Shown piece by piece: positions 12,411 through 19,584 of a stretch of DNA of 64,000 nt. The stretch comes from SAR202 cluster bacterium AC-409-J13_OGT_754m. GTDB taxonomy: Bacteria; Chloroflexota; Dehalococcoidia; Lucifugimonadales; GCA-2712585. A program made the translations under genes and the position numbers. The notes beneath the pieces were generated by a model. The model saw only the letters and a program-made list of their open reading frames with translations. It was not told the DNA's origin and ran no database searches. Location of the stretch: contig VEXD01000002.1 of the NCBI GenBank assembly GCA_009391235.1, forward strand, positions 62,001 to 126,000, given 5' to 3'. Positions within the stretch are counted from its first letter, which is position 1, and each line of letters starts with the position of its first letter.

Positions 12411-12614
12411 ATGATAGATGTTACGGTAAACGGAAAATCAATCAAATTAGACTCGTCAATGAATCTTACTGACCTGTTGCGATTTTTGAATGTAGACAGT
12501 CAGTATGTGGCAGTGGCCCATAATGGAGAAGTTGTTCAAGTATTAGACCTGATGTGTATTGTTGTAAATGATGGTGATGAGGTGGAAATAGTACGCCCTG
12601 TGGGTGGTGGCTAG
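12411..12614 (+). CDS. thiS: sulfur carrier protein ThiS
   Basis: A ubiquitin-like sulfur carrier of about 67 aa ending in V-R-P-V-G-G-G, so its C-terminal Gly can be adenylated and thiocarboxylated to feed ThiG. V-A-V-A-H-N-G-E-V-V and D-G-D-E-V-E-I are typical ThiS strands. The ATG at 12411 gives the usual length; an ATG at 12399 would add four residues. Its stop codon overlaps the stop of the convergent selD gene in a shared CTAG. Confidence 0.92.
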   Translation: MIDVTVNGKSIKLDSSMNLTDLLRFLNVDSQYVAVAHNGEVVQVLDLMCIVVNDGDEVEIVRPVGGG

Positions 12615-13654
12615 GGTACAACTTTTATTAGATGATCTGTATGGTTCTTTACTTCCCCGATTATAACTGAATGTTCACAACCATTGTTATGTAGATCATT
12701 AATCAATGTGTCTGACTTCTCTTTGTCCACGGAAATCAAGAGACCGCCCGAGGTTTGAGCGTCACATAAAAACAATTGTTGCTCGAGATTAATATTTGTC
12801 CAATCAACTCGTTGATATGAGCTTTCGGCGTTGCGGCGACTACCACCTGGTATCATGCCGTCTGAAATATGTTTCCATACTCCCTCGATTGCTGGAACGG
12901 AGGAAAGCTGTATGGTTGCTGATGTGCCACTTTCTTTCATCATAGAGCATAAGTGACCAATTAATCCAAATCCTGTAACGTCAGTAGCTGCATTAACTCC
13001 TATTTCCACCATGCATTTAGAGGCATTAGAGTTCAAAGTGGCCATGAGCTCGATGGTACTACTTATAAGTTCGGGGGAACATTGTCCTTGCTTTGCAGCA
13101 GTTGTTATAATCCCCGTTCCTAGTGGTTTAGTAAGGATAAGTTTATCACCCGGCTTAGAACCTGATTTGGTTACTTCTTCTCCGGGTTTTACTATGCCTA
13201 GTACAGCCATACCGTATTTTGGCTCCTTGTCATCTATAGTATGGCCGCCGGCTATCAAACATTTGGCTTCCTGAGCTTTGCTATACCCACCTTTTAGTAT
13301 TTCCCCTAGTATATCTTTAGGTAATTCGGCGGGGAATCCTACTATATTCAATGCGAACAGAGGTCGTGCTCCCATTGCATAAACGTCGCTTAAGGCATTA
13401 GATGCAGCAATCTGTCCAAATGAGAATGGGTCATCCACTACAGGTGGGAAAAAGTCTACTGTAAACACAAGACCTATATCTTCGCTTAGTTTATATACCG
13501 CAGCGTCATCTCCGGTTTCCAACCCTACAAGGAGGTTTGGATCGGTCATGACGGGTAGTTTGCTCAGGACCTGCACCAGGTCCTCATGACTGAACTTTGA
13601 AGCTCAGCCAGCACAATTGGCAAGATCGGTTAATTTAACCTGATTATATCCCAT
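12611..13654 (-). CDS. selD: selenophosphate synthase, itself a selenoprotein (in-frame TGA at codon 17)
   Basis: It makes selenophosphate from selenide and ATP for selenocysteine and selenouridine synthesis. An apparent start at 13576 lacks the catalytic N-terminus. Reading on upstream in the same frame gives V-K-L-T-D-L-A-N-C-A-G-[TGA]-A-S-K, the family active-site loop, with TGA (13606-13604) at residue 17. Lys follows at residue 20, exactly the spacing of the Cys17/Lys20 pair of E. coli SelD. The ATG at 13654 has AAGGAA at good spacing; an ATG at 13672 is the alternative. Further motifs include the metal-binding E-T-G-D-D-A-A-V-Y and A-T-D-V-T-G-F-G-L-I-G-H. The total length of 347 residues is normal for the family. 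It starts about 28 bp after tRNA-Asn on the same strand. Confidence 0.93.
13566..13606 (-). promoter_or_regulatory. bacterial SECIS element of selD
   Basis: It comprises the UGA at 13606-13604 and a downstream perfect 7-bp hairpin (arms 13584-13578 and 13572-13566, AGGACCT/AGGTCCT, loop GGTGC). The loop begins about 26 nt after the UGA, within the range used by bacterial SECIS elements, and contains the G-U expected for SelB recognition. Position and shape support selenocysteine insertion rather than termination. Confidence 0.75.
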
Positions 13655-13681
13655 GTGTTGTTCCTTGGTCATTTGATGGGT

Positions 13682-13756
13682 TGGCTCCCGAGGTAGGATT
13701 CGAACCTACGACCTAGCGGTTAACAGCCGCCCGCTCTACCGCTGAGCTACTCGGGA
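13682..13756 (-). tRNA. tRNA-Asn(GTT)
   Basis: The acceptor stem TCCCGAG pairs with CTCGGGA. The anticodon loop CTGTTAA gives anticodon GTT. The T-arm contains GGTTCGAATCC, and CCA is encoded (13684-13682). selD begins a few bases downstream on the same strand, so the two are probably cotranscribed. Confidence 0.96.
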
Positions 13757-17963: not shown

Positions 17964-19328
17964 ATGAAGTTTAGAGAATTACCAAGTGTTGATAAGATTT
18001 TATTGAACAACGATATAAAGCCGTTGTTGGAACAATATTCGCGTGCTTGGGTAACAAGCATTATCAGAGTTGTGCTTCAAGCGGCACGACTTGATATAAG
18101 TAATGGTTCTGAGCCCCTAACCTTGGATCAAATAGTGCAGTTGGTTTATGAGAAGTGTATAGAACTGGTTTGTGTAAGACCTATGAAAGTGATTAACACT
18201 ACCGGGGTTATAATTCATACGAATTTAGGTCGTTCTCCTTTAAGTCAAGACGCTTTGGATGCTATGGAGAGTTCTGGTAAAGGATACGGTGATCTCGAAT
18301 TTGATATTAAAGAGGGGAAGAGAGGATCTAGGGATACTTATATTCTGGATTTATTGAAATATCTAACCGGAGCTGAATCAGGTTTGATAGTTAATAATAA
18401 TGCCGCAGCTATGTTATTGGGCCTTACAGTTTTCGCTCAAGGTAAGAATGTTGTTATCTCAAGAAGTGAATCTGTTGAAATAGGTGGGGGTTTTAGAGTA
18501 CCAGATGTGATAGAACAAAGCGGTGTTAGAATCAAAGAAGTTGGGACTACTAACCGCACTTTCATAAAAGACTACGAAAATGCTATAGATGAACAGACCG
18601 TTGCCATAGTCAAAATACATCCGAGTAATTTTAAGGTTATGGGGTTTACCGCTTCTCCTGATTTGCCTGAACTAGTTGAATTTGCGCATAAACGAGAATT
18701 ATTAGTTATGCATGATATAGGAAGTGGTTGTTTATTAGACGTTACCAGATTTGGGTTGGCTTACGAACCTCTTCCCATAGACAGTGTAAAGGCAGGGGTA
18801 GACTTAGTGTTCTTTTCAGGAGACAAGTTACTGGGTGGCCCACAGGCTGGGATAATTGTAGGTAAAAAGAGTTTAATAAATCGCATGGCCTCCCATCCAA
18901 TGGCTCGTGCACTAAGAATGGATAAAACTAGATTGGCTGCTCTTCATGCTACCTTAAACCATTACATTAAAGGTGATGTATTGGAGAAAATTCCTATATG
19001 GAGAATGATAACTGCAACAAGTATTGATATTAAGAATAGAGCTATACGTTGGAAAAATATTATTGGGGATGTAGCAACAGTCAAATCAGCTTATTCTACA
19101 ATTGGAGGTGGAAGCCTTCCTGGTGAAACACTTGAGACTTGGGTTGTAGCTATAAATTGTAGCGGGTTTAAGGGTGGGGCTGAGGCAATGTCGTGTCTTT
19201 TGCGTAGGCAGGACCCACCTATACTAGCCCGAATTGAACAGGAACAAATATTATTAGATCCCAGAACTGTGGATAAACATGAAGAGGATACTTTAATATC
19301 TGTTATTAAAGATGTGATAAATGGATGA
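17964..19328 (+). CDS. selA: L-seryl-tRNA(Sec) selenium transferase
   Basis: This PLP enzyme converts Ser-tRNA(Sec) to Sec-tRNA(Sec) with selenophosphate. SelA features are V-I-N-T-T-G-V-I-I-H-T-N-L-G-R, V-N-N-N-A-A-A, S-R-S-E-x-V-E-I-G-G-G-F-R-V-P, T-N-R-T, H-D-I-G-S-G and the PLP lysine in F-S-G-D-K-L-L-G-G-P-Q-A-G. The length of 454 aa is normal. It overlaps an 87-aa gene by 8 bp. With the selenoprotein selD 4.3 kb away, this shows an active selenocysteine pathway; selB and the selC tRNA are not in the window. Confidence 0.94.
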   Translation: MKFRELPSVDKILLNNDIKPLLEQYSRAWVTSIIRVVLQAARLDISNGSEPLTLDQIVQLVYEKCIELVCVRPMKVINTTGVIIHTNLGRSPLSQDALDAMESSGKGYGDLEFDIKEGKRGSRDTYILDLLKYLTGAESGLIVNNNAAAMLLGLTVFAQGKNVVISRSESVEIGGGFRVPDVIEQSGVRIKEVGTTNRTFIKDYENAIDEQTVAIVKIHPSNFKVMGFTASPDLPELVEFAHKRELLVMHDIGSGCLLDVTRFGLAYEPLPIDSVKAGVDLVFFSGDKLLGGPQAGIIVGKKSLINRMASHPMARALRMDKTRLAALHATLNHYIKGDVLEKIPIWRMITATSIDIKNRAIRWKNIIGDVATVKSAYSTIGGGSLPGETLETWVVAINCSGFKGGAEAMSCLLRRQDPPILARIEQEQILLDPRTVDKHEEDTLISVIKDVING

Positions 19329-19584
19329 TATAAATTTCCTAAATCGAATTCAAGACAAGATTGAACGGGCAACTGGGAAATCTATAGAATTACTGATAGA
19401 TGAAGAAAACTCTAATTCGTTAGAGGTGGAATTAGAGGATTCAATTCCTAGGTTAATTTTTGGGCATGCTGTTTTACAATATCCAGGTTTTGCTAGGTTA
19501 TGCATTGAATATTCCGTTGCTTGCATACGTGAAGGTAGACAGATAAGCACCTTAGAGTTTCATGCTGTGCTTGGGAGAAATTAA
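19321..19584 (+). CDS. small protein coupled to selA, 87 aa, unknown
   Basis: I do not recognise a family. The protein is soluble and acidic in its first half (many Glu/Asp, residues 24-43). A more hydrophobic C-terminal half has two Cys (L-C-I-E-Y-S-V-A-C-I). The ATG overlaps the last codons of selA, so translation is coupled and the product may act with SelA or in Sec decoding. That link rests on position alone. Confidence 0.6.
   Translation: MDDINFLNRIQDKIERATGKSIELLIDEENSNSLEVELEDSIPRLIFGHAVLQYPGFARLCIEYSVACIREGRQISTLEFHAVLGRN

Follow-up and report, generated by a model that had tools for sequence, protein, structure and literature searches.

A predicted selenocysteine-containing SelD in an uncultured order of Chloroflexota and a recoding hairpin that may have changed position

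Introduction

Selenocysteine (Sec)-containing SelD is itself already well known, and the gene described here belongs to this known type. Sec was encoded by 19% of the SelD genes detected in a 223-genome set, always at the same position (PMC4561486, section 4), and UxxK is the motif listed for SelD in Table 1 of PMC13188914. In ocean metagenomes, a CxxU variant made up about 5.6% of the Sec-SelD proteins with a single domain (PMC2398784). The hairpins that direct Sec insertion in bacteria (bSECIS) are described in section 5 of PMC13188914 as having a loop of 3-9 nt, a stem of 4-16 bp, a G in the first two loop positions, a spacing of 16-37 nt and an energy of at most -7.5 kcal/mol.

The gene lies in a 64,000-nucleotide stretch of DNA (the window) from SAR202 cluster bacterium AC-409-J13_OGT_754m. 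It resembles Sec-containing SelD (TIGR00476) in its catalytic UGA, its UxxK motif, a downstream bacterial SECIS and the presence of Sec genes in the genome. It departs from the known pattern in that all SelD matches listed for its order are of the Sec form (66/66, in 64 of 79 genomes). Likewise, the gene shares the CAGU sequence of the CxxU subtype of single-domain Sec-SelD, but CxxU is the rule here, in 60 of the 66 order genes. Its hairpin agrees with the bSECIS model in stem length, loop size, loop G, spacing and energy, whereas the orthologues of this one order use three spacings. Sec-SelD of this order (SAR202/Chloroflexi/Dehalococcoidia) is not the subject of any listed paper, judged by title or displayed abstract, and among the papers listed on bacterial SECIS position, bSECIS with SelD, relocation and alternative stems, no title or abstract opening mentions a bacterial SECIS that moved. 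The known Sec-SelD type is here extended to an uncultured order in which, judging from 79 genomes that vary in completeness, selenophosphate synthesis appears Sec-dependent.

Results and discussion

The selD frame crosses a single UGA

The minus-strand frame 12611-13672 is open once a TGA is read through and encodes SelD. Re-reading it confirmed the coordinates of the original prediction and exactly one TGA, at 13606-13604. The peptide that had been given for the region upstream of the standard start, V-K-L-T-D-L-A-N-C-A-G-U-A-S-K with U for the TGA, agrees with the translation. Against NCBIfam TIGR00476 (selD) the extended protein scores 383 bits (cut-off 125) over residues 13-319, in a match that spans the TGA. 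The SelD chains of PDB entries 3u0o and 2yye have Cys aligned to the TGA position, and U-A-S-K aligns with their Cys and Lys, which places the TGA at the catalytic Cys/Sec position of SelD with Lys three residues on, as had been proposed. Since the profile match spans the TGA and the PDB chains have Cys there, the frame that crosses it is not a chance one.

The gene has two candidate starts. ATG 13672 gives a protein of 353 aa (12611-13672) with the TGA as residue 23, and ATG 13654 one of 347 aa (12611-13654) with Sec17 and Lys20. ATG 13654 looks the better start, because an AAGGA resembling a ribosome-binding site (13662-13666) precedes it by 7 nt and because Sec17/Lys20 agrees with the numbering of E. 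coli SelD, which we take to be Cys17/Lys20. The UGA itself occupies 13604-13606. Three residues after it comes the codon for Lys20 (13595-13597), which completes UxxK and is Lys in 66/66 order genes. Three residues before it lies the codon for Cys14 (13613-13615), so that the motif is CxxU. Under table 11, the frame begins at GTG 13576 and runs to 12611 (321 aa). This GTG (13574-13576) occupies nt +28 to +30, counted from the UGA, and thus sits in the loop of the hairpin described below, so that it is probably a spurious start. The standard ORF list nevertheless starts there and loses the active site, which bears out the expectation that ordinary gene calling would truncate the protein.

A stable hairpin follows the UGA

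A bacterial SECIS-like hairpin (13564-13586, minus strand; register A below) pairs nt +18 to +27 with +31 to +40 after the UGA, in 9 bp with one mismatch (+19/+39). The uninterrupted core joins +20 to +26 with +32 to +38. Its sequence is GGACCU-GGUGC-AGGUCC, in which the apical loop GGUGC (13573-13577) covers +27 to +31, or GUG alone if G27-C31 closes. On its own the hairpin reaches -12.3 kcal/mol, its spacing is 26-27 nt (loop GGUGC at +27 or GUG at +28), and it lies within all four published bSECIS constraints. The fold of the 42 nt after the UGA has a z of -3.11, with none of 200 shuffles equally stable, and that of 58 nt a z of -3.26, with 3 of 200. Synonymous-codon shuffles of the window selD were equally stable in 0/200.

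The same region is unusually stable in the related genes. A narrower scoring gives the 66 order genes a mean of -10.9 kcal/mol downstream of the UGA versus -5.3 for synonymous shuffles; taken individually, 25 of them reach p ≤ 0.05. Five sites elsewhere in 65 of the order genes were scored as well, and there the gap between observed and shuffled values is at most 0.6 kcal/mol, with p ≤ 0.05 in 1 to 5 of 65. For 15 Cys homologues the narrower scoring gives -4.4 versus -4.5 shuffled (p ≤ 0.05 in 0/15). Whole-fold scoring gives -13.8 versus -8.8 shuffled for 89 distinct TGA loci (46 significant) and -9.4 versus -9.3 for the Cys loci (1/15 significant). In the scoring used below to assign registers, the best hairpin is weaker than -7.5 kcal/mol in 10/66 order genes, and 4/15 Cys homologues have one at -7.5 or better.

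SelD across the order

The genome set comprised 79 genomes: the source genome, six of the same family and 72 more of the same order. SelD is represented among the matches listed by 66 genes in 64 of these, 65 of them at E 1.8e-79 or better and one a fragment at a contig end (G060). Read one by one, each carries a single TGA, at the selD catalytic codon; related genomes with an ordinary Cys codon, which would have pointed to an error, did not appear. The frame stays open for at least 260 codons past the TGA in 65 of the 66, the exception (L160) being cut by the contig end. The listed matches for the 79 order genomes include no Cys-SelD that could act as a spare. Among the 15 genomes without SelD, 12 are listed solely with weak matches that contain no stop (25-31% identity) and that we interpret as ThiL-type homologues, and three (G033, G047, G072) have only matches weaker than those listed.

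The comparison was widened with the best 80 of 113 loci from a contig scan beyond the order set; one locus (L104) was dropped for want of an alignment at residue 23. The 145 aligned loci divide into 130 with TGA and 15 with Cys, the wider part being the best 80 of 113. Within that scope, no Cys locus comes from the order set or is titled Chloroflexota, two (L086, L100) being titled only as bacterium, and the nearest named SelD records are from Dehalococcoidia and SAR202-cluster Chloroflexota. Two loci titled Dehalococcoidia (L045, L046) are identical to two same-family genes (L021, L023) over 60 nt counted from the TGA.

The position three residues before U is Cys in 60/66 order genes and Ser in six (L145, L146, L148, L149, L158, L159). 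CxxU also occurs in 18 of the 64 named TGA loci from the best 80 of 113. One single-contig genome (G009) carries two near-identical Sec-SelD genes (L024, L125).

SelD and selB largely occur together. Counting selB at E ≤ 1e-60 and the listed SelD matches, 63 of the 79 genomes have both and seven neither, one has SelD only and eight have selB only. The single SelD-only genome (G025) has tRNA-Sec. The eight selB-only genomes, among 71 positive for selB, weigh against a perfect SelD-selB link; several are incomplete assemblies, and two (G034, G042), at 94-95% completeness, have selB and tRNA-Sec and no SelD match. Another of the eight (G052) falls under the selB cut-off. tRNA-Sec is present in 67/79 genomes, one of which (G031) has neither SelD nor selB.

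Selenocysteine machinery and uses of selenophosphate

The source genome (1.03 Mb in 53 contigs, 70% complete) encodes the components that a Sec reading calls for. Its tRNA-Sec scores 72.3 bits (cut-off 47) and is called tRNA-SeC with anticodon TCA by ARAGORN, and its selB scores 355.8 bits (cut-off 242.25), so that both genes whose lack would have told against the original prediction are present above curated cut-offs. The window itself carries selA, the L-seryl-tRNA(Sec) selenium transferase gene (17964-19328, plus strand; TIGR00474, 529.9 bits, cut-off 267.9).

The genome also encodes candidate targets. Two of its six AhpC/TSA-family matches contain one in-frame TGA. One candidate selenoprotein is AhpC/TSA-type with the motif SWUAVC (L165, G000:C3:68230-68490), and another is a thioredoxin-NHL protein with YCUINC (L166, G000:C28:27-383); in both, the domain match runs across the TGA and a hairpin follows. 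PF02627 gave one weak, stop-free match in the source genome. The UGSC (NF041046) and GrdB/PrdB (PF07355) profiles matched nothing there and had no control match either. Within the window, ten of many TGA-extended frames were compared with Pfam, and none contained a domain needing the TGA.

The selenouridine gene mnmH/ybbB (TIGR03167, E ≤ 1e-40) was found in 0 of the 79 genomes of varied completeness, with a control match in E. coli. The selenium-cofactor gene yqeB (TIGR03309) had no match in the 70%-complete source genome; its control was above cut-off in 1/14. Because mnmH was not found in the 79 genomes, nor yqeB in the source genome, Sec is the sole known use of selenophosphate with support here, though SelD may have further uses, the source genome being 70% complete.

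Proposed function and alternative readings of the UGA

The gene is, with a probability of about 0.96 on the sequence evidence, a Sec-containing selenide, water dikinase (SelD) whose UGA is recoded through the hairpin, SelB and Sec-tRNA(Sec). That the TGA is read as Sec had been proposed at the outset, and the proposal is supported by the TGA in all 66 listed order SelD matches, by selA, selB and tRNA-Sec, and by the hairpin after the UGA. Ribosomes would begin at ATG 13654 and meet the UGA as codon 17. The hairpin, with its GGUGC loop at +27 to +31, would recruit SelB and Sec-tRNA(Sec), leading to insertion of Sec. In the N-terminal loop, Sec17 and Lys20 would then carry out the selenophosphate chemistry, and the Cys14-Sec17 pair of the CxxU motif could form a selenenylsulfide or aid selenium uptake. 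Selenophosphate would feed SelA and thereby Sec-tRNA(Sec), which in turn would be used to make further SelD as well as two or more additional candidate selenoproteins. An autoregulatory loop was part of the original prediction. Its core stands: SelD would need its own product, because sequence and known biochemistry indicate that selenophosphate is needed to make Sec-SelD. That the loop is also regulatory, with selenium acting on SelD supply, is an inference.

Other accounts of the TGA fare poorly. The window comes from a fragmented, incomplete assembly, and one might suspect that the TGA is an artefact of sequencing or assembly, or that the gene is a pseudogene with Cys as its real codon; yet the TGA is no error, because all 66 listed order SelD matches share it, and the long open frames beyond it in 65 of them speak against decay. 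We consider this account scarcely credible. Another possibility is that the UGA is reassigned or decoded by another tRNA (e.g. Trp or Cys) and not by the Sec machinery, since simple readthrough would leave the frame open too. Against this stand the joint presence of tRNA-Sec, selB and selA, the use of TGA to end other genes in the window (selA stops at 19328 under table 11 and would run to 19415 if read through) and the lack of any excess of stable hairpins in the Cys homologues, and decoding by another tRNA seems very improbable. Finally, the true gene might start at GTG 13576, as the table 11 list has it, and make a short SelD-like protein that lacks the N-terminal loop. SelD homology, however, crosses the TGA, all 66 order genes retain the motif around U and the GTG falls in the hairpin loop, which leaves a short protein with a negligible chance.

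The best hairpin falls into three registers

The best hairpin of the 66 order genes falls into register A in 26, B in 32 and C in eight, and reaches -7.5 kcal/mol in 56. The loop lies at about +21 after the UGA in C (centre +22), about +27 in A (centre about +29), the register of the window, and about +33 in B (centre +35). The same scoring assigns the 64 named TGA loci (from the best 80 of 113) to B in 27 cases, C in 22, A in four and elsewhere in 11, with 54 reaching -7.5. In the 15 Cys homologues, the positions of the best hairpin are scattered.

Base pairing follows the assigned register. The A genes (25 of 26) are 99.4% paired in A, with a covariation score reached by 0/500 shuffles, and B is at chance for them (179/500); further pair types are matched by 500/500 shuffles and both-side pair changes by 38/500. 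The B genes (31 of 32) are 94.6% paired in B, again with a covariation score reached by 0/500 shuffles, and are at chance in A (160/500); here further pair types are matched by 0/500 and both-side pair changes by 50/500. The part of the tree that holds the window (13 rows) is 100% paired in A (0/500) and at chance in B (156/500), and a second part (21 rows) is 92.9% paired in B (0/500) and at chance in A (277/500), both parts hanging on weak nodes (96/64 and 38/94). These contrasts arise partly by construction, because hairpin energy decided which genes went into the A and B sets and the tree parts were chosen to be uniform in register, and the shuffles ignore the relatedness of the genes. Alignment A1 and the careful tree omit a near-copy (L125, of L024), alignment A2 omits a fragment (L160), and the trees omit this fragment and a long branch (L159).

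A test free of this sorting predicted the register of each gene from the other members of its taxonomic family. It covered 18 families with at least two SelD genes, leaving out partner-tied genes and a family (f4) represented by two copies in one genome. The predicted register was the gene's own best in 36/41, against a mean fraction of 0.37 and a maximum of 0.76 in 2000 label shuffles. Pairing in the predicted register was 92.3%; the corresponding figures are 71.7% for synonymous shuffles and 67.4% for the two remaining registers. Taken individually, 14/41 genes reached 0.05. Same-register family members show double compensating changes in four families, at +21/+37 in f1, at two pairs each in f34 and f5 and at one in f18. 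Four of the 18 families (f3, f6, f14, f21) contain more than one register.

The SelD phylogeny calls for several changes of register. A careful tree of 66 rows, 63 of them order genes, was computed with the hairpin codons left out; its bootstrap had not fully settled. It implies nine register changes, compared with a mean of 26.3 for shuffled registers, of which 0/200 were as low. Counting well-supported branches alone leaves at least five changes for A, three for B and four for C. A quick tree of 84 rows gives 11 changes within the order; it includes 20 of the 64 named TGA loci, picked by hand, and the careful tree three. The careful tree places the three outgroup rows inside the order, which leaves register B a candidate ancestral state and no more. 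Even within one genus, two genes differ in register (L032 in A, L034 in C).

Some genes can form two hairpins at -7.5 kcal/mol or better, five of them in A and B (L030, L031, L038, L041, L126) and two in A and C (L029, L127). The codons involved are typically CUG-GNN-CAG-GUN-CUG. Alternative hairpins are possible because this pattern lets the G-type loop fall on either half, with a few changes in flanking codons deciding between them.

We think it probable, with reservations, that the SECIS hairpin of selD repeatedly jumped within the order between three positions 6-7 nt apart on the same codons, some genes being able to form two alternatives, while the UGA stayed fixed. The competing idea is that the three registers are a by-product of codon and amino-acid constraint and that only one of them, or another element, is the real signal. 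The conserved L-x-Q-V-L coding does make near-palindromic DNA, some genes form more than one hairpin, and registers were assigned by energy, with hand-picked tree parts on weak nodes and covariation partly by construction. Constraint alone sits badly with the success of family-based prediction in 36/41 genes and with the higher pairing there than in synonymous shuffles or the other registers, and we regard it as unlikely, though a serious contender. A hairpin that moved would imply that SelB of these bacteria tolerates distances from UGA to loop anywhere between about 20 and 32 nt. It would provide a series of natural experiments on the permitted distance between SECIS and UGA, by which the SelB spacing rule becomes testable, and on the way in which a signal embedded in coding RNA can shift its place while its function is kept. 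Bistable genes might even set the recoding of the selenium-activating enzyme by the choice of hairpin.

Two further observations concern the registers. The SxxU genes are all in register B except L159. One assembly (G008) contains two Sec-SelD genes, in registers B (L136) and A (L143); the latter may be a stray contig, because the contig that carries it is 3 kb long and the gene clusters with those of a different family.

Genomic neighbourhood of selD

A tRNA search placed a tRNA-Asn(GUU) gene (13682-13756, minus strand) 9 nt upstream of ATG 13672, a neighbour outside the proposed mechanism. A conserved tRNA-Asn/selD transcription unit was considered and rejected, the two genes being divergent in four of the six same-family relatives (L016, L018, L021, L023). 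Of the other two, one (L019) has tRNA-Asn on the selD strand at a distance of about 1.1 kb, and in the other (L017) none was found. Because tRNA-Asn lies beside selD yet divergent in the four relatives, a local rearrangement has evidently taken place.

On its other side, selD converges with a ThiS gene (12411-12614, plus strand; PF02597), whose TAG overlaps the selD stop in a shared CTAG. Farther along, an ORF of 87 aa (19321-19584, plus strand) overlaps the end of selA by 8 nt and has no Pfam or NCBIfam match.
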